Part shown: positions 1,278-50,783 of the stretch, in pieces
Layout of the letters: each line of letters begins with the position of its first letter
Numbering within the stretch: the stretch's first letter is position 1
Assembly (NCBI RefSeq): GCF_913063425.1
Contig: NZ_CAJXYK010000031.1
Span: 1-64,000, forward strand
Length of the DNA: 64,000 bases
Direction of reading: 5' to 3'
From: an uncultured Thiohalocapsa sp.
GTDB taxonomy: Bacteria; Pseudomonadota; Gammaproteobacteria; Chromatiales; Chromatiaceae
Position numbers and translations under genes: made by a program
Notes under the pieces: generated by a model
What the model was told of the DNA's origin: nothing
The model's database searches: none
The model's input: only the letters and a program-made list of their open reading frames with translations

Positions 1278-4200
1278 CGCGCCGGCTCGGGCCGGCCGCG
1301 CAGGCCGATGGGGAAGGACTGCCCGCGCAGGTCGTTCCAGGGCTCCATGGCGTACTGCCAGACGCGCCGGCTCATGCGCGGCACCTCGTCCGCCAGGTAC
1401 TCCGCCAGCTCACCGGTCTCGATGGTGCCGTCGCGGTCGCCGAACAGGTCGGCGCGGCCGGCGAGGCCCTCCAGCAGCACGTAGGTAAAGAGGCCGTGCC
1501 CCTCCAGGCCCTCCAGCGCATAGGCCTTGTCGGAGGTGCCGGCGAGGATGGCCCGGCCGGTCTTGGCCATCAGCCGGTCGATGGCGGCGCGGGTTTCCAG
1601 GTCTGCGTTGCTGCGGGCCAGGCCGGCGAGGCGGATCTCGTCCGTGTCGGCCACGGCCCCGGCGTAGCAGGAGTCCAGCACCACCAGGCTCTTGCGGGCC
1701 TGCACCTGGGCCAGCAGGCCCTGGAGCCGGTCCTCGTGCAGGCTGCCGTCGGCCAGGGAGGTGCTGCTGGTGTAGCTGAAGTCCCAGGGGATGAAGTGGT
1801 AGCGGCCCTCCTGGGCCAGCCCGTGGCCGGCGAGGAACAGCACGAAGACGTCGTCCGGCCCCGCCTTGGCGGCCATGGCCTCGAAGGCGTGCGTGATGCC
1901 GTCCAGCGTCGCCTCGTCGTTGACCACGGTCTCGATCTCCACCGCCCGGAACAGCCCGCGCGCGGCGGCGTTGACGGCGGACGCGAAGGCCTCGGCGTCG
2001 TCGTCGCCGTACTCCAGCGACCAGGTGGGGTTCTTGTACGGGCCGATGCCCACCGCGAGGCCGTAGAGCGCGGGCCGGCGGCGGTCGCGGCCGGTGACCT
2101 CCACGTCCCAGGCCGCCCAGTTGGACGCGACCCGGTCCCGGCCGTCGAAGACGCGGGCCTCGACGCGGTGGGTACCCGCGTCCAGCGTGAAGGGCCGGCT
2201 CTCCTCGCGCTGATTCGGCAGGCCGAGCCCGAAGCGCCCGCGCAGGTCCCCCTGGCCGATGAGCACGCCGTTGACCCGGTACTCGATGCGCCCGACGCCG
2301 CTGCCGCGGTCCTGCACCCGGAAGCGGGCCTCGAAGTCCCGGCCGGACTGGCGCACCTGCACCGGACCCAGCGGCGCCAGCAGCGGCGGCTTCGCGGCGA
2401 GCAGGGTGTCCAGGTCGCCGATGTCGGCGAGCGCCGTGCGCGCCAGCGCCGGGTACTCCGGCGTCAGGGCCTTGGCGATCAGGTCCGGGCGGCGGAAGAC
2501 CTCGCCGATCTGCTCCGCGTCCACGAGCTCCCCGGCCCGGTCCGCGCCCCGGTTCAGGTGCCAGCCCATGAGCCGGTCGCCGCCGCCGGCGCTGTCGAAG
2601 AAGCCCTCCGGCGTCCACAGCACCCAGGGCACCGCCCCCGCCGGCGCCTCCCCCGTGGAAGCGGCGTCCCCGCCGCGATCGCCGCGATCCGACTTATTCC
2701 CATCCAGCGCCGCAACCGCCGCCCCGTCCACGAACAGCGCCAGCCGCTCCTCGCCGCTGTCCGCATCGAGCCAGCGCACACTGCCGTCGCCGAAGGCCGC
2801 CACCGCCCAGCGGCCGTCGGCGCTGAGGTTGACCATCCAGGTCGTCGCCGGCGCCGGGGTCTTCCACAGCAGGTCGCCGTCGCGGTCGTAGAGGCGCAGG
2901 TACCAGGCGGTGCCGAGCAGGAAGCGGCGGTCGTCGTCGGCGATGTCGAGCCTGCGGCTCATCTCGAACCGCTCCAGATCCAGGAGCTCGCCGTCGAGTC
3001 TGGGATCGTACTCGCTGAGCCAGTCGGTGATGGCCAGCCCCTCGGTGCGCGGGCCGGCGAGCCGGGGCAGGCCCAGGGCCGCGCGCGTCGGGTCGTCCAG
3101 GCGGCCGGTGGCGGCGAGCTCGCGGTCGCGCTGGAAGGCCTCCAGCGCCGCGCGGGTGCGCCGGCCGAGGGCGCCGTCGATGGGGCCGGGGTCGTGGCCC
3201 CGGGCTCGCAGCCGGCGCTGGAGCGTCTCGGTCTCGTCGCCCGGGTCCAGGGTCAGCCGGCGCTCGGTGAGGTCGAGGCGGAGCACGTGCTCGCGCCAGC
3301 GGTGGTCCGGGGCCAGGACCTTCAGGTCGAGCTCCGCCGTCATCCCGTCGGCGGACAGGCGCAGCTGATGGCTGCGGCGGCGGAAGTCCGCAATGGCCGG
3401 CCCGCGCCCGCGGATCAGCTCGCCGCCGGCGTCCAGCAGGCCCCAGGCGGGGTCCGCGGCACCGAAGGCCAGCCGGCCGTCGGCGAGGGGGGCCAGGTCC
3501 ATGATCGTGCTCTTGGCGACGGGCCGCTCGCGCGGCGGGCCGCGGCCGGCGTCGGGCCAGCTCACCAAGCCGTTCTCGTCGCCCTGCATGTTGTAGCGTC
3601 CGCCGGCGAACAGGGTCCGGCCGTCGCGGGACCAGGCGACCTTGGACAGGTCGCCGTTGTCGACGCCCGAGGTGTCCGGGGCATGGAGCAGCGACAGGTC
3701 CTCGGCGGAGAGGACGTTCACCGCGGTGCTGTCGTCGAAGCCGACGGCAATGCGCGCCCCGTCCGGCGAGAAGGCGAGAGCGAAGGGGCGCTCGCCGCCC
3801 GGCGCCTTGGCCTTCGCGATGAGCCCAAGGTCCGGGTCGTAGAGCCGCACCTGGCCGTCGTCGCAGGTGCTGGCCAGCCGCCCGGCGGCGTCGAAAGAGA
3901 CCCAGTAGCTGCGCGCGCCGTAGTCGGCGTCCCGCTCGACCTCGGCCCAGCCGTCGGTGTCGAAGACGCGGATGCCGCCGGCGCCGAGGGCCGCCGCCAG
4001 CCGTCGGCCGTCCGGCGAGAACGCCAGGTGATTGATCACGTTCGGCAGGCCGCCGATGCGGTGCGCGAGGGTGCCGGTGTCGCGGTCGAAGAGGTAAATC
4101 GAGTGACGGCGCTCCCACCCATAGCCGGTCCAGCCGCCCACGGCCACGGTTCGCCCGTCCGGCGACAGCGCGGCGGCGAACAGCTTGCCTTCATGGTTCT

Positions 4201-12699: not shown

Positions 12700-12960
12700 T
12701 GCGGGGATACAATGCGGGGACGGTAAACCGATCTGACAATTCTGGTGACCAATTATGGGGACGGTAACCTTATCTATCCTCGCGTCGTCCGTAGGCCCTT
12801 CCTTGGGTGCTTCAGGACGCCACGCATCCACGTGACTGTCTCCCATCCGCGGGCAGGATGGTGAATTGCAGTGACCGTCCCGTTTCGGATGGTGAATTAC
12901 GGTTACCGTCCCCGTTTCTACGTCCCCGTTTCTAGTTATGGTTACCGTCCCGATTTCTCC
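12700..12960. repeat. Cluster of GGGGACGGTAACC motifs upstream of narX
   Basis: The 12426-13119 gap holds no supported gene. It contains at least five copies, in both orientations, of a core GGGGACGGT(A/T)ACC linked to AATTATGG or CCCGTTTC (near 12715, 12757, 12875, 12905 and 12942). Copies on the two strands face each other across about 100 bases. They look like the short repeats that REP-associated tyrosine transposases leave behind, but no transposase gene is present. Confidence 0.65.
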
Positions 12961-13119
12961 CCGTTTCTCCTGGGCGTTCCGCGCCCGTGGCCGGGATTGC
13001 GGACAGCGCAGGCAGCCCGCGGTCTGGAATAATCCAGACGTGCAGTGGCGCCGCGCGGTCCAGGGGGGGGGCCTTCGCGAAGCCGCTCACTACCTTATCT
13101 GTCCTCCTGTCCGCCGCCC

Positions 13120-41141: not shown

Positions 41142-41375
41142 ACATCCTTACCGGCGCAACTCTGCAATGGGGGCGCCCGCGGGCTCGGCTGCGCGCGCCG
41201 TCGGCGCACGGCAGCCGATGGAGCCTGTGCGGGGCGGCCGCCGTAGACCAGCTTTGGTCCGCACAGACTGCGCGCCGGGCGGGGCATTGCGTCACAGCAC
41301 CGATGCGTGAACCATATGCCATCCACAGCAGCGCACCGGCGTGCGCACCGTGCCGCAGCCGAGCCGGGAGCCACG

Positions 41376-44300
41376 ATGACCCAGACCACCCCAACCCAGG
41401 CCGATTTCCTGTTCGACAGCGATGAGCTGCACGCGTTGGCAGGGGAAGCGCTGCTGCGGCGCGCCCTGCGCCATGCGCAGGACAAGCGGGTGGTACGGGT
41501 GGCGCTGCTTGCGGGCCAGCTGGACGCAGAGGTGGAGGACGAGGACACGGAGGAGCACCTGGCGCTGAGCCTGGGTTACGACGTCGACGGCAACCTCTGG
41601 TATTCCTGCGACTGTGCGTCGGACCCCGAGCGGTATCCGGACGCTCACGGTCAGGACGGCAGCCCCTGTGTCCACTCGCTGGCCGCGCTGCTCGCCTTCG
41701 GCACCGCGGAACAGGAAGAAACCTCGTTGGGCGATGCCATCGCCGCCGCCATCGACGAGCGGGTCAAGCGCGGTCGCACAGAGGTGAGGGTCGAGCCGCT
41801 GGCCGGGGAGACAGACGACGACGCTGCGCCGCCGTGGTTCGGTACCTGGCGTGCCCGCTCCATCGGCAACGACACCGGTCCCTTCCAGTCCAGCTGGCAG
41901 GTGCAGATCCGCTCGCTGACCGAGCGGGCCAACCACTGCACCTGCCCAGACTTTGCCACCAACCAGCTCGGCACCTGCAAGCACATCGAGGCCGTGCTGC
42001 ACCGCATCGGCAAGCGCAAGGACTACAAGCAGATCGGCGCCCAGCCGGCGCCCCGGCCCTATGTGTACCTTGACTGGCAGCGCGACGACGCCCCCCGCAT
42101 CCGGCTCCACCGCTGCAAAGAGATCCCGGCCGATCTCGCACCGGAGCTGGAGCGGTGGTTCGATGCCGCCGGCGCCTTCCGCGGCCGGCTGCCGGACGAG
42201 CTTCTTGCCTTCGCCGAGCGCCATGGCGGCGGCGAGCTCCTGATCGGCGACGATGCGCTGGGCTTCGCCCGCCGCCTTGCCGATGACGCCGCCTGCGAGC
42301 TGCGCGCACGGGATATCGGCCAGCGCATCCGCGACGGCGGCGGCCGGCTGCCGGAGATTCGCGCCCGGCTCTACCCCTATCAGGTGGACGGCGTCGCCTT
42401 CCTCGCCGGGCGCGGCCGAGCGTTGTTGGCGGACGACATGGGCCTGGGCAAGACCCTGCAGGCCATCGCCGCCGCCTACTGGCTGCACCGCAACGACAAC
42501 GTGGAGCGCGTGCTGATCGTCTGCCCGGCGTCGCTCAAGCTCCAATGGGTGCGGGAGATCGAGCGCTTCACCGGCGCCGACGCGCATCTGGTGCAGGGCC
42601 GGCTCGACGAGCGCGCCGTGCAATACCGCAAGGGCAGGGGCTTCTACGTCATCAACTACGAACTGGTGCTGCGGGATCTCAGCGTCATCAACGAGACCCT
42701 GGCGCCGGACCTGCTGATCCTGGACGAGGCCCAGCGCATCAAGAATTGGCGCACCAAGATCGCCACCGCCATCAAACGCATCCCGTCGCGCTATGCATTC
42801 GTGCTCAGCGGTACACCGCTGGAGAACCGGCTGGAGGATCTCTACAGCTTGATGCAGGTAGTGGATTCGCGGGTGCTGGGGCCGCTCTGGCGCTATATGG
42901 CGGACTTCCATATCACCGACGAGCGCGGCAAGGTGCTCGGCTATCGCAACCTCTCGGAGCTGCGCCGCAGGCTGGCACCGGTGATGCTGCGTCGCGACCG
43001 CGCCCTGGTGCGTGACCAGCTGCCGGACCGCATCGAGCAGCGCCGCGACCTGCCCCTGTCGCCGAAGCAGGCGGAGATCCACGACGACGCCCTCAACGCC
43101 GCCGCGATGCTGGCGCAGATCAGCAAGCGCCGTCCCCTGACACCATCCGAGCAGAATCGCATGATGGCGGCGCTGCAGAAGGCCCGCATGGCCTGCAATG
43201 CCGCGGGCCTCGTGGACAAGGAGACCCGGGGCTCACCGAAGCTCGACGAGCTGGCGAGCATTCTGGAGGAGGGCTGTCAGCTCGCGGGCCAAAAGGCGGT
43301 GGTGTTCTCTCAATGGGCACAGATGGGCGAGATGGTGGAAGAGCGCGTGCGGCACATGGGCCTCGGCTGCGTTCGCCTGCACGGCGGCGTCCCCAGCACC
43401 AAGCGCGGCGAGTTGTTGGATCGGTTCCACAACGACGACGCCTGCCAGGTCTTCATCTCCACCGACGCCGGCGGCACCGGGCTCAACCTCCAGTGCGCCT
43501 CCCTGCTGGTGAACCTGGACATTCCGTGGAACCCGGCCGTGCTGGATCAACGTGTCGCCCGCATCCATCGGCTCGGCCAGCGCAGCAAGGTGCAGGTCGT
43601 CCATTTGGTGGCGGAGGACGGCTACGAGGCACAGGTGCTCGGGCTGGTGCAGGGCAAGCGCGACCTGTTCGACAACGTGGTGGATGCCGACGCCGAAACC
43701 GACGTGGTCGCCACGTCCAAGAAGCTCGCGGAGTTGCTGGCCGAGGATCTGGCGGGCAAGGATGCGCTGGGCGAAGTGCCACGGGACAGGCCGACGGATG
43801 ACGCCGCGCAGGAGGAGACCCCGGCCGCCGGCCCCGCCGCGGCAGCGCCGACATCGGCACCCGCCGACACCGCCGGCGCCGACACCGCAACGGGCGATGA
43901 GGTTCGTCGCTGCATCGAGATCCTGCAACGCGACTTCGCCAGCCGAGTCACCCGCATCCTCGGCGCCCGCGGCGGCCTGCTCGTCGTGCTTGATCAGGTG
44001 GACGATGGCGACGACAGCCGCGTCGCCGGCATCTCGGAGCGCGTGCCCATCGCGCTCATCGACGCCCGCACCCTGCGCGGGCTGGAGCGCCTCGGCGCTG
44101 CCTCGCCCGCCTACGGCGCCGAAGCCCTCTACCAGGCACCGACAGACCCGCAACCGGCAACCGCTGCGGAGCCCAAGCTCATGCAACGCGCAAGGCAGCA
44201 GCTCGAGGCCGCCGAGGTTCTGCTGCAACAGGCCTGCTCAGCACCGGCTGCCGAGATGCTGCTCGGCGCCGCTCTGAACGCGGCGGCGCTGCGCACCGGC

Positions 44301-44519
44301 CGGGCAGCCCCGCCCGAGGCGAGCCGCGCCGCCGTCTGGCTCTACGGAGAGGTCCTGCCCACCGGACAGCTGCAAGCGCAGGAGGCGAGCCTGATCATGC
44401 AGGCCCACGGCCTTGCGCAGACCGAGGGCGAGATCCCTCTGCAACTGCTCGCAACCTTGACGCAGGAGATCGGCCGCTTCATTGCCGCTTCCATCGCGCC
44501 CGAGACCCCAGCATCCTAG
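41376..44519 (+). CDS. SWIM zinc-finger SNF2-family helicase
   Basis: A 1047-residue DNA-translocating ATPase. Two Cys-rich SWIM-like zinc motifs stand at the N-terminus (YSCDCASD..SPCVHSLAAL, about 75-110, and HCTCPDF..GTCKHIEAVL, about 188-205). The Swi2/Snf2 core has Walker A DDMGLGKT (353-360), DEAQ box LDEAQR (449-454), SGTPLENR, a C-terminal helicase lobe with QKAVVFSQW, STDAGGTGLNLQ and the arginine-finger block DQRVARIHRLGQ. A C-terminal 200 residues have no known domain and are partly Ala/Pro-rich. The ATG at 41376 has GGGAG 8 bases upstream. It heads a co-directional stretch with the small adaptor and NACHT genes and may belong to a conflict system; general DNA repair remodelling is the alternative. 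Confidence 0.93.
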   Translation: MTQTTPTQADFLFDSDELHALAGEALLRRALRHAQDKRVVRVALLAGQLDAEVEDEDTEEHLALSLGYDVDGNLWYSCDCASDPERYPDAHGQDGSPCVHSLAALLAFGTAEQEETSLGDAIAAAIDERVKRGRTEVRVEPLAGETDDDAAPPWFGTWRARSIGNDTGPFQSSWQVQIRSLTERANHCTCPDFATNQLGTCKHIEAVLHRIGKRKDYKQIGAQPAPRPYVYLDWQRDDAPRIRLHRCKEIPADLAPELERWFDAAGAFRGRLPDELLAFAERHGGGELLIGDDALGFARRLADDAACELRARDIGQRIRDGGGRLPEIRARLYPYQVDGVAFLAGRGRALLADDMGLGKTLQAIAAAYWLHRNDNVERVLIVCPASLKLQWVREIERFTGADAHLVQGRLDERAVQYRKGRGFYVINYELVLRDLSVINETLAPDLLILDEAQRIKNWRTKIATAIKRIPSRYAFVLSGTPLENRLEDLYSLMQVVDSRVLGPLWRYMADFHITDERGKVLGYRNLSELRRRLAPVMLRRDRALVRDQLPDRIEQRRDLPLSPKQAEIHDDALNAAAMLAQISKRRPLTPSEQNRMMAALQKARMACNAAGLVDKETRGSPKLDELASILEEGCQLAGQKAVVFSQWAQMGEMVEERVRHMGLGCVRLHGGVPSTKRGELLDRFHNDDACQVFISTDAGGTGLNLQCASLLVNLDIPWNPAVLDQRVARIHRLGQRSKVQVVHLVAEDGYEAQVLGLVQGKRDLFDNVVDADAETDVVATSKKLAELLAEDLAGKDALGEVPRDRPTDDAAQEETPAAGPAAAAPTSAPADTAGADTATGDEVRRCIEILQRDFASRVTRILGARGGLLVVLDQVDDGDDSRVAGISERVPIALIDARTLRGLERLGAASPAYGAEALYQAPTDPQPATAAEPKLMQRARQQLEAAEVLLQQACSAPAAEMLLGAALNAAALRTGRAAPPEASRAAVWLYGEVLPTGQLQAQEASLIMQAHGLAQTEGEIPLQLLATLTQEIGRFIAASIAPETPAS

Positions 44520-45036: not shown

Positions 45037-45450
45037 ATGGACCCCGCTGTCACCACCATCGTCGCCGCGAGCCTGCCCTACCTGGACGCCCTGCTCGGCG
45101 GCTCCCGCGAGCACCTGAAACAGCTCGGCAAGGACCTCACCGGCGAGGTGATCGACCGCGTACATGGCTTTTGGCAGCGGTTGGTTCAGGAGGCGCCTGG
45201 GGCGAAGGCGCTGGCCCGTGCTGGTGAGGACCCGGATCAGCGCCTGGCGCTCGAGACGCTGGTCGGCGAGGTCGTGGAGCGCCACCCGCAGCTCGGCCAA
45301 GAGCTTGCGGCCCTCGCGCCGCTGCTCCGTCCGGTCGCGCAGGTCGCCAACCAGAGCGGCGGCACCACCCAGGTGACCGGCGCCGGCGGCATCAATGTCG
45401 CCGGCGATGTGCACGGCGACATCACGCTGAACAATCGCTTCGGCGACTGA
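45037..45450 (+). CDS. Small adaptor-like protein upstream of the NACHT gene
   Basis: A 137-residue protein of no recognised family. The first two thirds are helical (LPYLDALLGGSREHLKQLGK, GEVIDRVHGFWQRLV, ETLVGEVVERHPQLGQELAA). The last 30 residues are Gly-rich beta sequence (GTTQVTGAGGINVAGDVHGD then ITLNNRFGD). The stretch V-H-G-D-I-T-L-N-N-R-F (125-135) resembles I-R-G-N-V-T-I-N-N-Y-V (22-32) at the N-terminus of the NACHT protein that follows. Small proteins like this often act as effector-associated adaptors in NTP-dependent conflict systems. The ATG at 45037 has GGAGAAG 6 bases upstream. A 308-base gap with a REP element separates it from the NACHT gene. Confidence 0.72.
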   Translation: MDPAVTTIVAASLPYLDALLGGSREHLKQLGKDLTGEVIDRVHGFWQRLVQEAPGAKALARAGEDPDQRLALETLVGEVVERHPQLGQELAALAPLLRPVAQVANQSGGTTQVTGAGGINVAGDVHGDITLNNRFGD

Positions 45451-45576: not shown

Positions 45577-45648
45577 GTAGTCAGCGGATCAGCGAAGCGC
45601 ATCCGCCGACCGTGCACTGGTGGATGCGCTGCGCTTATCCACCCTTGC
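45577..45648. repeat. Bipartite REP element, copy 2 (before NACHT gene)
   Basis: GCGGATCAGCGAAGCGCATC and CGCC are followed by GGTGGATGCGCTGCGCTTAT and CCACC, the same two palindromes in the same order as the reverse complement of 7487-7557. It fills the middle of the 45451-45758 gap. A run of GCGCAACGGCGCCACGACGC lies just upstream near 45477. No gene is present. Confidence 0.85.
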
Positions 45649-45758: not shown

Positions 45759-48506
45759 ATGACCAAGCACCAACCGCCATCCTCCCAGCACGCCGAGACC
45801 GGCTCGGTGGCGGCGCGGAAGATCCGTGGCAACGTCACCATCAACAACTACGTCGCGCCGCAGGACGTCGGGCCGGACGAGGCCGCACTGCAACGAAGCT
45901 GGCTGAACTGGGTCATGAGCCAATGCCGACCGGTGTCGCTGTCCGCGCTGGATGCGGCCACGGAAGACCGGCAGGGGCCGAAGATGCGGTTGGAGGAGGT
46001 CTACACCGGGCTGTTGATCAGCGGCATGCTGTACGACGGCCGGTTCAGGTTTGATGGCGAGCACACGTATTCTGAGGTCCAGCTTTCAGCCGTGGGTTGG
46101 TTGGATTCTCGCGCGTGCGCCGTCCTGCTCGGCAAGCCCGGCAGCGGCAAGAGCACCTTCGTCAACTTCGTCGCGCTCTGCCTGGCCGGCGAGCTCCTCG
46201 GCGATCCGGACACCAACCTGAAGCGCCTCACCGCACCGCTGCCCAGGGACGACGGCGAGGACGCGGACGAGCCCCAACCCTGGTCCCACGCCGCGCTGCT
46301 GCCCGTGCCTGTGGTGCTGAGGGACTTCGCCGCCGGCCCGCACCTGCCGGGCGATGGCAACGAGCCCGGCGCCGATGCCCTCTGGGGCCACATCGGCGAC
46401 GATCTGGCACGCTGCGATAAGGCGGACTACCTGCCACACCTGCGCCGGCGCATGCTCAATGGCGAGGCCCTGTTGCTGCTGGACGGCCTGGACGAGGTGG
46501 CCGACGCCGACGGCCGCCGCGACCGGGTGCTCGGCGCCATCCGCGCCTTCGCGGTGGCCCACGACCGGGCGCGTATCCTGGTGACGGCGCGGCCCTACGC
46601 CTACGAGCGCCCGGAGTGGCGACTGGACGACGCCGGCTTCGACAGCGCCATGCTCGCCGACTTCTCCGACGGGCAGATCCGCCGCTTCGTGCGCCGCTGG
46701 TACGCCCGCCGCAGCGACGATGCTGCCGACAACGCCGGTCGCGCCAGGCTGCTGGAGCGGGCCGTCTTCGAGCGCGAGGGCGGGCGTCTGTCGGATCTCG
46801 CCCGCCGACCGCTGCTGCTGACCCTGATGGCCTACCTGCACGCCGAAAAGCAGCGCGCACTGCCGGACAAGCGCCACGAGCTCTACGCCCAGATCCTGGA
46901 TCTGCTGCTGCGCAACTGGGACGCGAAGCGCTTCAAGGTGGATGCCGACGGCACGCCGCGGGAGGACCAGCCGGCGCTCACCGAGTACCTGGCCGTCGGC
47001 CCCGCCGAGGTCCGCTGCGCGCTGGAGCGGCTCGCCTATCTGGCCCATCGCGACCAGGGCGGTAAGGGCGGTGCGGATAACGGCGGAACCGCCGACATCG
47101 CCGAGAAAGACCTCCTGTACGCGCTCTCCCGCATCAAATCCGACAGCACCTCGGTCAACGATCGCAAGCTCAGGCACTACTTGGAGCACCGCAGCGGTGT
47201 GCTGACCCAGCGCGGCCCCGGCGTCTACACCTTCCCGCATCGGAGCTTCCAGGAGTACCTTGCCGCGTGCCACCTGCGCAGCGCCGACTTCGACTTCGAC
47301 GACCCGGCGCTCGCCTGCCTGGGCGAGGACGCGCTGGACAGTAACGAGACGCTGATCGCCGCCCTCGGCCGCCTGGAGCCGGACCGCTGGCGGGAAGCAG
47401 TGCTGCTCGCCGCCGCGGAGACCGAGCATTTCGCCTGGGCGGTGGCCGACGAGCTGGCGCCGGAGCTGCCGCCTGGCGACTGGAAGGGCGACGGCGAGCC
47501 CATCGCCGACCCGGACGCCTGGGGTGCGCGGCTCGCCGGCCAGATCCTGCTGGAGGCCACCGAGCCTGCCAAGGCCAACCGCAGCCGCAGCCGGATTCGC
47601 GAGCGCGTCCGCGACGGCCAGCTCGCCGTCATGCGCCGTTCCCGACTGTTGGCCAAGGAGCGATGCGCGGCCGGCGACTGCCTGTCCCTACTGGGAGACA
47701 TCCGCTTCGACCCCGAGTGCTGGTTCCTGCCGGCGGAGCCCGACCTCGGCTTCGTGCAAGTGCCCGCCGGGCGCTTTCGGATGGGGCAGGACGATGCGTC
47801 GCTGAACCTAGATCTCGCCGAGCAACCGGTCCACGAGCTGGCGCTGTCGGCCTACTGGATCGGCCGCTGGCCCGTGACCGTGGGGCAGTTCCGCGCCTTC
47901 GTCGAGCACAGCGGGCAGGCGCCGCGGGACGGCCGTGCGCTGCACGATCCGGACAGCCGGCCGGTCCGCTGGATCGATTGGCACGAGGCCGATGCGTACT
48001 GCCGCTGGCTGCAGGCGCGGCTGCTTGAGCTGCCGGCCGACGCGGCGCCGCGCTTGGCCGGCGCGCTTCGCGACGGCCGGCTGCGGGCAGCGCTGCCGTC
48101 CGAGCCGGAATGGGAGCGCGCCGCGCGCGGCACCGACGAGCTGACCTATCCCTGGGCAGTGTTGCCGGGATTGGCGGACTTTGAGAGTGCGAATATGCAC
48201 GGGGATATCGGAGACAGCGGCGTCGTCGGCTGCTATCCCCGGGGTGTCAGCCCGACCGGCTGCGAAGACCTGAGCGGCAATGTTTGGGAATGGACCCGCA
48301 GCCGGTCGGGTGGCTACCCCTATCCGCCATCTGGGCCCGAGCGGGCCGAGCGGGAGGGTTCCGGATCGGGGGATCGGCTCCGGGTGCTGCGCGGCGGCTC
48401 CTTCTTGAGCTCCGGCCGCAACTGCCGCGCCGCTGCCCGCAGCTGCGCCATACGACTGCGCCTTGTCGATGTGGGTTTTCGGCTGGTCTGGTCCTCATGT
48501 CCGTGA
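45759..48506 (+). CDS. NACHT ATPase with C-terminal FGE-sulfatase/C-lectin domain
   Basis: A 915-residue NLR-like STAND protein. After a short beta-like leader (residues 19-32, KIRGNVTINNYV) and a helical part (SWLNWVMSQC), the NACHT ATPase has Walker A GKPGSGKS (125-132), Walker B LLLLDGLDEVAD (D242, D245-E246), a sensor TARPY and a helical winged-helix region with PHRSFQEYLAACHL. The C-terminal domain (about 665-915) is a formylglycine-generating-enzyme/C-lectin fold: FVQVPAGRFRMGQDD, then NVWEWTRSRSGGYPYP and LRVLRGGSF. The protein ends right after GFRLVWSSCP. It probably senses a target through the C-terminal domain and triggers through NACHT. ATG at 45759. Confidence 0.93.
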   Translation: MTKHQPPSSQHAETGSVAARKIRGNVTINNYVAPQDVGPDEAALQRSWLNWVMSQCRPVSLSALDAATEDRQGPKMRLEEVYTGLLISGMLYDGRFRFDGEHTYSEVQLSAVGWLDSRACAVLLGKPGSGKSTFVNFVALCLAGELLGDPDTNLKRLTAPLPRDDGEDADEPQPWSHAALLPVPVVLRDFAAGPHLPGDGNEPGADALWGHIGDDLARCDKADYLPHLRRRMLNGEALLLLDGLDEVADADGRRDRVLGAIRAFAVAHDRARILVTARPYAYERPEWRLDDAGFDSAMLADFSDGQIRRFVRRWYARRSDDAADNAGRARLLERAVFEREGGRLSDLARRPLLLTLMAYLHAEKQRALPDKRHELYAQILDLLLRNWDAKRFKVDADGTPREDQPALTEYLAVGPAEVRCALERLAYLAHRDQGGKGGADNGGTADIAEKDLLYALSRIKSDSTSVNDRKLRHYLEHRSGVLTQRGPGVYTFPHRSFQEYLAACHLRSADFDFDDPALACLGEDALDSNETLIAALGRLEPDRWREAVLLAAAETEHFAWAVADELAPELPPGDWKGDGEPIADPDAWGARLAGQILLEATEPAKANRSRSRIRERVRDGQLAVMRRSRLLAKERCAAGDCLSLLGDIRFDPECWFLPAEPDLGFVQVPAGRFRMGQDDASLNLDLAEQPVHELALSAYWIGRWPVTVGQFRAFVEHSGQAPRDGRALHDPDSRPVRWIDWHEADAYCRWLQARLLELPADAAPRLAGALRDGRLRAALPSEPEWERAARGTDELTYPWAVLPGLADFESANMHGDIGDSGVVGCYPRGVSPTGCEDLSGNVWEWTRSRSGGYPYPPSGPERAEREGSGSGDRLRVLRGGSFLSSGRNCRAAARSCAIRLRLVDVGFRLVWSSCP
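48381..48480 (+). other. Candidate DGR variable region in the NACHT-FGE gene
   Basis: Residues 879-911 run from GGSFLSSGRNCR to DVGFRLV. Known retroelement-diversified C-lectins share the frame GGSW...NCR.A.R......R...GFR, in which the variable positions come from AAY codons in a template repeat. Here the fixed letters (GGS, NCRAA, R, GFRLV) stay and the positions between them are mixed (LSSGR, A, SCAI, RL, LVD). The region ends six residues before the stop, the usual place. No template repeat or reverse transcriptase is in this window, so this is inference. Confidence 0.5.
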
Positions 48507-48883: not shown

Positions 48884-49432
48884 ATGGAAGCAGTCAAACT
48901 CAAGACCCTGGAGGATCTGCTGCTGGCGCCCGAGGAGGACGTGGAGCTGATCGGCGGGGAGATCGTGCGTCGGCCCATGACGCGCGCCTCGCATGCGGCC
49001 GTCCAGGGCAACGCCCGCGGCGAGCTCCATGCCTTCACTCACGGCTCCGGTCCCGGCGGCTGGTGGATACTGACGGAGGTCAGCGTTGCGTACGAGCCCC
49101 ACGAATGTCCGCGACACGACCTCGCCGGCTGGCGCCGGGAGCGGCTGCCGCATCTGCCGGATGGGATCATCGATCTGCCCCCGGATTGGGTCTGCGAGAT
49201 CGTCTCTCCGGGCCATGAGAAGAAGGACACGCTGACGCTGCCGTTGCTGCTGCGCCGCCATCGGGTGCCTTTCTATTGGCTGATATGGCCGGAGGACAGG
49301 GTGCTCATTGCGCATCGGCTCGAGGGTGAGGAGTGGCGCGTGATTGCGACGCTCAAAGACACGGCGAGTGGGCGGGTGCCGCCGTTCGAGGCGATGGCGC
49401 TGAATTTGGGCGACATCCTGGGCGGCGAGTAG
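48884..49432 (+). CDS. Uma2-family (PD-(D/E)XK-like) endonuclease
   Basis: A 182-residue protein of the Uma2 (DUF820) family, predicted restriction-like endonucleases. The family markers are visible: YELIGGEI-type ELIGGEIVRRP (about 22-32), DLPPDWVCEIVSPGHEKKDT with the catalytic D-x-n-E-x-V segment, and PFYWLIWPEDRVL. The ATG at 48884 has GGAGGTG about 5 bases upstream. It is co-directional with the NACHT gene and could belong to the same island, but Uma2 proteins are abundant and scattered in many genomes, so the link is weak. Confidence 0.87.
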   Translation: MEAVKLKTLEDLLLAPEEDVELIGGEIVRRPMTRASHAAVQGNARGELHAFTHGSGPGGWWILTEVSVAYEPHECPRHDLAGWRRERLPHLPDGIIDLPPDWVCEIVSPGHEKKDTLTLPLLLRRHRVPFYWLIWPEDRVLIAHRLEGEEWRVIATLKDTASGRVPPFEAMALNLGDILGGE

Positions 49433-49523
49433 ACATCGCCGCGGCTTTGGGGTGCACAGCCGATGGTCATGGCGGCCCAGTCGCGGCGGGGACGCCGCTC
49501 CCACGGCGGCGAGACGCGCCCGC

Positions 49524-50783
49524 TCAGCTCCTGTCATAGCCTTCCAGGCAGTAGGGATTGAGAACATCCCGCCGCCAAAGTGCGTTGCGCTCGGTCTCGG
49601 ACAGGCCGGCCTGGTCGCAGGTCGGCTCCCAGTCGCGCTTGATGACCGCGAGCTGGTGGTCGATGAGCGCGCGGGCGTCGCCTGGCGCGATGCCCAGCGC
49701 CGGCGCGGCGGCCAGGCAGGCGATGAGCCGGCTGTCGCGGCGCTCCGCCGTCAGCAGCATAGCCTGGCTCGCCTCGGCGATGCGGCCCTGCGGGCAGATG
49801 TCGTAGGCCGGTGTCAGCCGGTACTGGCGGCCGTCCCAGAAGGCCGCGTGGTTGCGGGCATGGTCGTCCGTGTTGCCGCACAGCACGTTGAAGACCATGC
49901 GGCCGAACAACTCCCGCAAGGTCGCGGTGGGGTCGGCAAAGTCGCGGCGGATGCGGTGTGCCAGGTCGATGTAGCCGGCGCAGCGGGCCTCCCATTCCTG
50001 CAAGCCGAGGAGCGTCAGTGCGGACAGCATCCCGCGCCGACGCCAGCCGCCGTCGGTCCGCACGCGGTCGAAGCGCTGGACCAGCAGGACATCCCGGCCG
50101 AGGGCGCTGGTCAGCGTGACCGGAGCGACGTCGAGGCCGACCCGGGCGGCGAGGCGCATGGCGACGTACTCCGACTTAACGACATTGCGGGTGTCGGTGC
50201 TGGTGGAGAACTTGGCAATGTACTTGGCCTCTGGACCGGCCAGGAGGGCCTTCGGTCGCGCGCCACCGACGGAGGTGCCGTGCTGCAGTGCGAGCCCGAG
50301 TGCCGGCGACAGCGTCTCCCCCCGGTCGAGCCGATCCGCGGCCTCGGCCAGCTCCGTGAGTGTCGCGTCGCCCGCTTCGCGCGGCACGTATCGGCTTGCC
50401 GATGCCTGGAAGTCCAACGCGCCGATCCGATCCGAACCGGAAGCCAGCAGGAAGTCGATCTCGTCCAGGGCATCGGTCGCCGGCTGCGTGCCATCCGCCA
50501 GCAGGCGCTGCAGGATGACCCGGCGTCCCCAAGCATCCGGCGCGGCGTCCCGCAGGCAAGAAGGCAGCCCATCGGCGGCTTGTCGCTGCGTGCCTGCCCG
50601 CAGCGGCAGCTCGTCGGGAAACAGGCTGACGGCGCAGTCGCGGGCCAGGTAAGAACGGCCATAAGTGAATGCGTATCCGCCGCCATCGGCGGCCAATAGG
50701 CCCGCTACGACGGGATCTTCGGCACCCGGCAGCCAGACCCAGACATAGGTCTGTCGGCGGTGGCGCTTGGCGTCAGAAGTCAT
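49524..50783 (-). CDS. hipA: HipA-family serine/threonine kinase toxin
   Basis: A 419-residue type II toxin kinase. In HipA of E. coli the protein phosphorylates glutamyl-tRNA synthetase and causes persistence. Motifs here are YIAKFSTSTDTRN (ATP-binding lysine), LLVQRFDRV, and the catalytic loop FNVLCGNTDDHARNHAAFWD with TPAYDI (DFG-like). All the key kinase residues are in place. The N-terminal part has the typical GALDF subdomain. Its ATG at 50783 overlaps the end of the upstream HTH gene by 11 bases, the usual coupled hipBA order. Convergent with the Uma2 gene. Confidence 0.92.
   Translation of the reverse strand: MTSDAKRHRRQTYVWVWLPGAEDPVVAGLLAADGGGYAFTYGRSYLARDCAVSLFPDELPLRAGTQRQAADGLPSCLRDAAPDAWGRRVILQRLLADGTQPATDALDEIDFLLASGSDRIGALDFQASASRYVPREAGDATLTELAEAADRLDRGETLSPALGLALQHGTSVGGARPKALLAGPEAKYIAKFSTSTDTRNVVKSEYVAMRLAARVGLDVAPVTLTSALGRDVLLVQRFDRVRTDGGWRRRGMLSALTLLGLQEWEARCAGYIDLAHRIRRDFADPTATLRELFGRMVFNVLCGNTDDHARNHAAFWDGRQYRLTPAYDICPQGRIAEASQAMLLTAERRDSRLIACLAAAPALGIAPGDARALIDHQLAVIKRDWEPTCDQAGLSETERNALWRRDVLNPYCLEGYDRS

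Follow-up and report, generated by a model that had tools for sequence, protein, structure and literature searches.

A NACHT-FGE receptor gene of Thiohalocapsa as a candidate stranded or former target of diversity-generating retroelements

Nine diversity-generating retroelement (DGR) loci have been described in Thiohalocapsa PB-PSB1 (Dore et al. 2024, PMC10907252). As reported there, the targets of DGR 3 fuse a NACHT domain to a DGR-diversified CLec domain, those of DGR 6 have the layout EAD8-nSTAND1-FGE, and at some loci MITE-like arrays occupy the place of the reverse transcriptase (RT) or template. That account proposes the targets as adaptive antigen sensors, with experiment still awaited; a DGR-rewritten NACHT receptor tip has thus already been proposed in print, and DGR-diversified NACHT sensors of Thiohalocapsa are published (PMC10907252). 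FGS domains, DGRs and conflict systems have also been linked (PMC7159879).

We analysed a 64,000-nucleotide stretch of DNA (the window) holding a gene whose host and PB-PSB1 probably belong to the same genus. Its contig, C31, is part of a 5.9 Mb genome assembled in 117 contigs (99.13% complete, 2.85% contaminated). Compared by description, the encoded receptor resembles the DGR 3 targets in pairing NACHT with a C-terminal C-lectin domain (PMC10907252). With the antiphage bNACHT and Avs proteins it shares a central NACHT NTPase and a C-terminal sensor, although the characterized ones use other sensors, for example TPRs (PMC10907252). The features of the locus, in window positions, are:

45037..45450, plus strand: small gene 5′ of the receptor, 137 aa, matching neither Pfam nor NCBIfam
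45586..45640, unstranded: inverted repeat with 22-nt arms, 86% complementary, between the upstream gene and the receptor
45759..48506, plus strand: NACHT-FGE (STAND/NLR-like) receptor gene, 915 aa, from open frame, translation and Pfam
46131..46154, plus strand: Walker A motif, GKPGSGKS, residues 125–132
46470..46496, plus strand: Walker B motif, LLLLDGLDE, residues 238–246
47751..48491, plus strand: FGE/C-type-lectin-fold domain, residues 665–911, from PF03781 (8.6e-39) and the predicted fold
48372..48497, plus strand: variable-repeat-like tail, whose best other DNA matches in its own genome are a repeat (76%) and a template (71%) on contig C89
48405..48470, plus strand: codons 883–904, the span of ten template-A (mutable) positions mapped from four relatives' DGRs

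The gene is real, as a first-pass annotation had read it: an open frame starting with ATG at 45759, nested in a longer TTG-started frame, codes for a 915-residue protein that carries NACHT NTPase motifs and ends in an FGE/C-lectin-fold domain. Pfam matches to NACHT (PF05729, 9.5e-9) and FGE-sulfatase (PF03781, 8.6e-39, residues 665–911) and the two Walker motifs together identify it as a NACHT/STAND NTPase. No effector domain was recognized in the receptor, and PADLOC gave no match for the protein. A predicted model of the final 288 residues (mean pLDDT 74.8, pTM 0.81) falls below a pLDDT of 50 at 173–183, 187–200 and 271–274, the last within the variable tail. Foldseek finds it similar to FGE-family proteins, including the Treponema denticola variable protein (2y3c; rank 11, E 5.8e-10, TM 0.52; sequence 3.3e-12), an established DGR product with an FGE-type C-lectin fold but, in the crystallized chain, no NTPase.

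The PF03781 match and FGE-like predicted fold would also suit a working formylglycine-generating or related oxidase domain joined to an NTPase. We consider this highly improbable: the tail can be aligned in part with the FGE enzyme 6s07, and there the first Cys of the C....C pair, which we take to be the enzyme's active-site pair, is replaced by Ser in the receptor (GGSFLS versus GGSFLC). The receptor thus lacks the cysteine pair that defines a formylglycine-generating enzyme, which argues that its FGE domain is probably a binding scaffold rather than an enzyme.

The comparison of relatives drew on the best 79 of at least 530 FGE matches. A DGR RT profile hit at E ≤ 1e-10 accompanies 10 of these relatives, and the LTSQ motif, which marks DGR RTs, occurs in 8 of those 10. 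Six of the 79 have template/repeat pairs with 12–21 A-site differences and no other (best 100 bases). Template versus repeat, these pairs are:

L135: 20 A-site differences, 0 other
L150: 14 A-site, 0 other
L192: 16 A-site, 0 other
L193: 21 A-site, 0 other
L209: 15 A-site, 0 other, and 21 A-site, 0 other (second pair outside the matched gene)
L210: 16 A-site, 0 other, and 12 A-site, 0 other (both outside the matched gene)

Weaker pairs, with 5–7 A-site and 1–4 other differences, occur in L153, L155, L169, L190, L197 and L207. All three A-only-pair targets scanned with Pfam (L135, L192 and L209) are NACHT-FGE proteins. L135 (PEKW01000018.1), from a MAG that bears the label Rhizobium sp., combines an RT and a template with a NACHT-FGE target showing the 20 A-only differences.

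Mapping covered four of the six A-only loci, and in each of them the template-A codons fall on receptor residues 883–885, 888, 895–897, 900, 902 and 904. Of these ten positions, seven belong to the 21 columns (of 288) that vary most across 23 relatives, residue 885 coming first; residues 884, 902 and 904 rank 63, 41 and 48. L148 was omitted from one alignment of the relatives for a stop in its reference. By homologous position and predicted fold, the tail sits where DGR targets carry their C-terminal variable repeat, in a C-lectin-fold domain. The suggestion that the varied positions are those that AAY codons would seed stands insofar as they coincide with A-bearing, mostly AAY codons of the relatives' templates, but the receptor's own codons bear it out only in part. 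Of the ten, eight have C or T at the third position, compared with 57% of codons 1–870 (P = 0.12, not significant), and TTG 883 and CTG 900 cannot be derived from an AAY codon by A changes.

The tail carries GGS..NCRAAAR...GFRLV, an ending that had been taken to mark DGR variable regions. Scored by regular expression over the 79 relatives, the motif is present in 60 of the 70 whose fetched stretch gave no long DGR-type RT hit and in 7 of the 9 whose stretch did. L158, with an RT-like hit of 64 residues (3.6e-11), is tallied among the 70 and L190 (RT-like, no LTSQ) among the 9. All seven own-genome tails tested, the receptor's included, have it (the genome holds 12 FGE matches in total). On these counts GGS..NCRAA...GFRLV is a generic FGE ending, non-diagnostic for DGRs. 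They speak for an ordinary NACHT-FGE sensor with no history as a DGR target, whose tail is DGR-like only through the fold common to FGE proteins and DGR targets, as do the FGE proteins of its own genome on C15, C3, C22 and C21, which, DGR targets or not, carry the same ending. We regard this as a possible though unlikely account, for reasons that lie in the repeat itself and in two related gene pairs, given below.

A re-writable tip would call for an RT and an A-rich template in the genome; the search returned no matching template and, as DGR-type RT, only a truncated and frameshifted one on contig C17. There (C17:84859-86828, equivalent to L039 4860-6829), a repeat, template, Avd and RT lie beside an EAD8-nSTAND1-FGE target, the layout of the PB-PSB1 DGR 6 targets (PMC10907252). 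Between the C17 repeat and its template, 6 of 21 A sites but 0 of 97 other sites are mismatched. The RT starts at about residue 190 of 350, lacking the N-terminal half, and is frameshifted, in which C17 differs from DGR 6; the receptor differs from the DGR 6 targets in being NACHT and not nSTAND1 (PMC10907252). The C17 Avd lies on the opposite strand, back to back with the RT; its profile is fully covered and scores above cut-off, with no clear start, and it is probably missing its first residues.

Contig C89 (C89:9165-9776, L038, minus strand) holds an FGE target repeat, an Avd stub (a 35-residue match), an AAC-rich template and, between Avd and template, inverted repeats; the contig ends within the FGE target. 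Mismatches between this repeat and its template number 13 at 28 A sites and 5 at 98 other sites, and an RT profile search of this contig gave no hit. Partly dismantled loci with MITE-like repeats are likewise described in PB-PSB1 (PMC10907252). C89 is a small contig and, given the 2.85% contamination, could be foreign. The only DGR-type RT in the genome is the frameshifted C-terminal half on C17; no intact one was found in the 99.13% complete assembly. Other RVT_1 hits, on C80, C26 and C35, were not counted as DGR RTs, having no LTSQ in the frames examined. In the window itself, RT and Avd queries had no match below E 0.15.

BLAST of the receptor tail against its own genome recovered two sequences of C89, the repeat at 76% and the template at 71%, and otherwise short matches with E > 0.001 (40 of 114 candidates scored); none of 17 short matches inspected contained an AAC-rich stretch. 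A reverse search of the genome likewise gave no fitting template for the tail, and tblastn of the whole receptor protein against it no further template. Against the C89 template, the tail mismatches at 18 of 26 A sites and 16 of 97 non-A sites, with a one-codon gap (Fisher p = 5e-7). The published rule for pairing template and repeat is agreement at all non-A sites (PMC10907252), and the C89 template therefore does not qualify. It is nonetheless the closest in the genome, where no cognate template identical at all non-A sites was found. Nor was a closer one found in 210 family genomes (up to four candidates scored per genome) or in the further DNA scanned; at 1e-5, the receptor tail has matches in 4 of the 210, its own included, and the C89 template in 21. 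At the PB-PSB1 loci, by comparison, population variation was measured and the DGR 3 template is named (PMC10907252), whereas no template was found for the receptor here.

With no cognate template or intact DGR RT found in a 99.13% complete assembly, the idea of a tip that can still be re-written did not survive the search. The receptor might yet be a live target whose template and RT are absent from this assembly alone, or lie in an unassembled region from which they act in trans. The assembly is in 117 contigs, one of which cuts the C89 target; full-length DGR-type RTs occur in two genomes of the genus (G002 and G004, 10 searched); and PB-PSB1 long reads recovered intact parts that the reference lacked (PMC10907252). 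We nevertheless think this improbable, given the high completeness with no matching template, a sole DGR-type RT reduced to a frameshifted C-terminal half, and the TTG and CTG codons that do not fit AAY templates. If live, the receptor would add to the candidates for a rewritable NLR-like sensor among bacteria.

The mismatch pattern against C89 was weighed with 15 other FGE tails, of which several show a DGR pattern of their own. The A-site excess cannot serve as proof of a link, being found at the same sites in 13 of the 15 (p < 0.05), because the A sites are saturated: those of the C89 template are mismatched at 59–87% in all 15. This shared A-bias, like the missing cognate template, agrees with a sensor that was never a target. 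The receptor's A-excess p is the smallest of the tails compared, because its non-A sites agree better. In this control comparison non-A mismatch to the C89 template is 16/115 for the C89 repeat, 30/117 for the receptor and 40/115 to 60/111 for the 15 others, making the receptor tail the lowest after the C89 repeat itself.

Codon usage at identical residues points the same way. Between receptor and C89 target, identical residues use the same codon in 21 of 24 cases in the repeat versus 38 of 74 upstream (p = 0.0016), and this excess confined to the repeat argues against a tail that was never a target. The value is the second smallest of 103 scored pairs among 15 tails (2 of 105 fell below the filter) and would not survive correction for 103 pairs. 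The only pair with a smaller p is that of G027, with a DGR-like pattern; two pairs with no obvious link came to p 0.005 (C17-C22) and 0.006 (C17-C3, in the opposite direction). Taken together, the low non-A mismatch and the repeat-confined codon identity provide moderate evidence for a link to the C89 template family.

Some match to the receptor occurs in 38 of 56 genomes searched, many to the FGE part alone. The nearest relative, in G027, is 61% identical over residues 270–915. It was discarded as an intact example, being itself broken (a stop, with residues 89–269 unmatched). The G027 contig holds a second FGE tail, and in the repeat the two tails are set apart by eight NNY codons with changes at first and second positions and by two codons with a third-position change, a pattern that stands against the never-a-target account. 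A scan of this 9.2 kb contig found no template.

A same-genus genome offers a second such pair. G001:C15 (L100, minus strand) carries NACHT-FGE genes in tandem whose FGE domains are mostly 93–100% identical by 20-codon blocks, with one block at 43/60. Their tails are distinguished by 13 codons, each of the form NNC in either copy, and by one codon gap, so a one-codon length change occurs within such a pair. Judged from these codons the tandem pair is clearly DGR-patterned, which again weighs against a receptor of this layout that had never been a target. BLAST did not find its template in G001 (40 of 284 candidates scored), returning both repeats themselves, a repeat element from further downstream in many copies, and a weak match on C54; the C54 match was rejected as template and is another FGE coding tail.

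In a FastTree phylogeny, the receptor and G027 group together (support 0.98) within a clade of 15 (0.953) containing one locus with a DGR RT, L135. A DGR RT lies in the fetched stretch for 3 of the 25 tips nearest the receptor, many of these stretches being short. Two further loci show unusual arrangements. At L121 (G230:C30), 262-1686 is a DGR-type RT frame that continues in frame through a template-like repeat, RGGSWNNKPRNVRSAKRNRNDPTNRNNNTGFRLASTP. At L102 (G024:C57), 2848-3474 has an NCRAA-type repeat just 5′ of an N-terminal DGR RT fragment; L102 is another dismantled DGR.

On balance we somewhat favour reading the receptor as a NACHT-type STAND (bacterial NLR-like) sensor whose FGE-fold tip is a former or stranded DGR target. 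The original idea of a rewritable NLR-like receptor is thereby retained in part: relatives of the same layout are DGR targets, the G001:C15 pair is DGR-patterned and the C89 template is of the same repeat family, but the re-writing step fails with neither cognate template nor intact DGR RT. In the mechanism we envisage, the FGE tip would bind a ligand, the NACHT NTPase would then open and oligomerize, and an effector would act, perhaps separately encoded because none is recognized in the receptor. A template of the C89 family may once have diversified the tip, which is now probably fixed in this strain, as decay of the machinery would explain. Decay much like this is reported for several PB-PSB1 loci (PMC10907252). 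As a stranded target, the receptor would offer a fixed tip whose ligand can be sought without ongoing mutation, in a genus that allows comparison of DGR loci that are intact, half-broken or orphaned.

A broader proposal, which we put forward as a rather unlikely speculation, is that one template family wrote the tips of receptors with different stalks (the NACHT-FGE receptor and the C89 FGE target), so that tips would move between receptors without the signalling part and, once the retroelement has decayed, survive as fixed, inherited specificities. If true, such a graveyard of frozen receptors would be a germline memory of an adaptive system.

Around the receptor, the 137-aa upstream gene ends in GDVHGDITLNN, which by eye looks like the receptor start RGNVTINN, and the gene is a possible partner of the receptor. 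The inverted repeat at 45586..45640 is MITE-like, a label of our own. Further 5′, 41307-44519 of the window codes for an SNF2-type helicase with a SWIM zinc finger, and directly 3′ of the receptor, 48884-50783 holds a Uma2-family gene (plus strand) and a HipA-like gene (minus strand). Elsewhere in the window, 12896-12985 on the minus strand is A-rich, with repeated units of GAAACGGGGAC.
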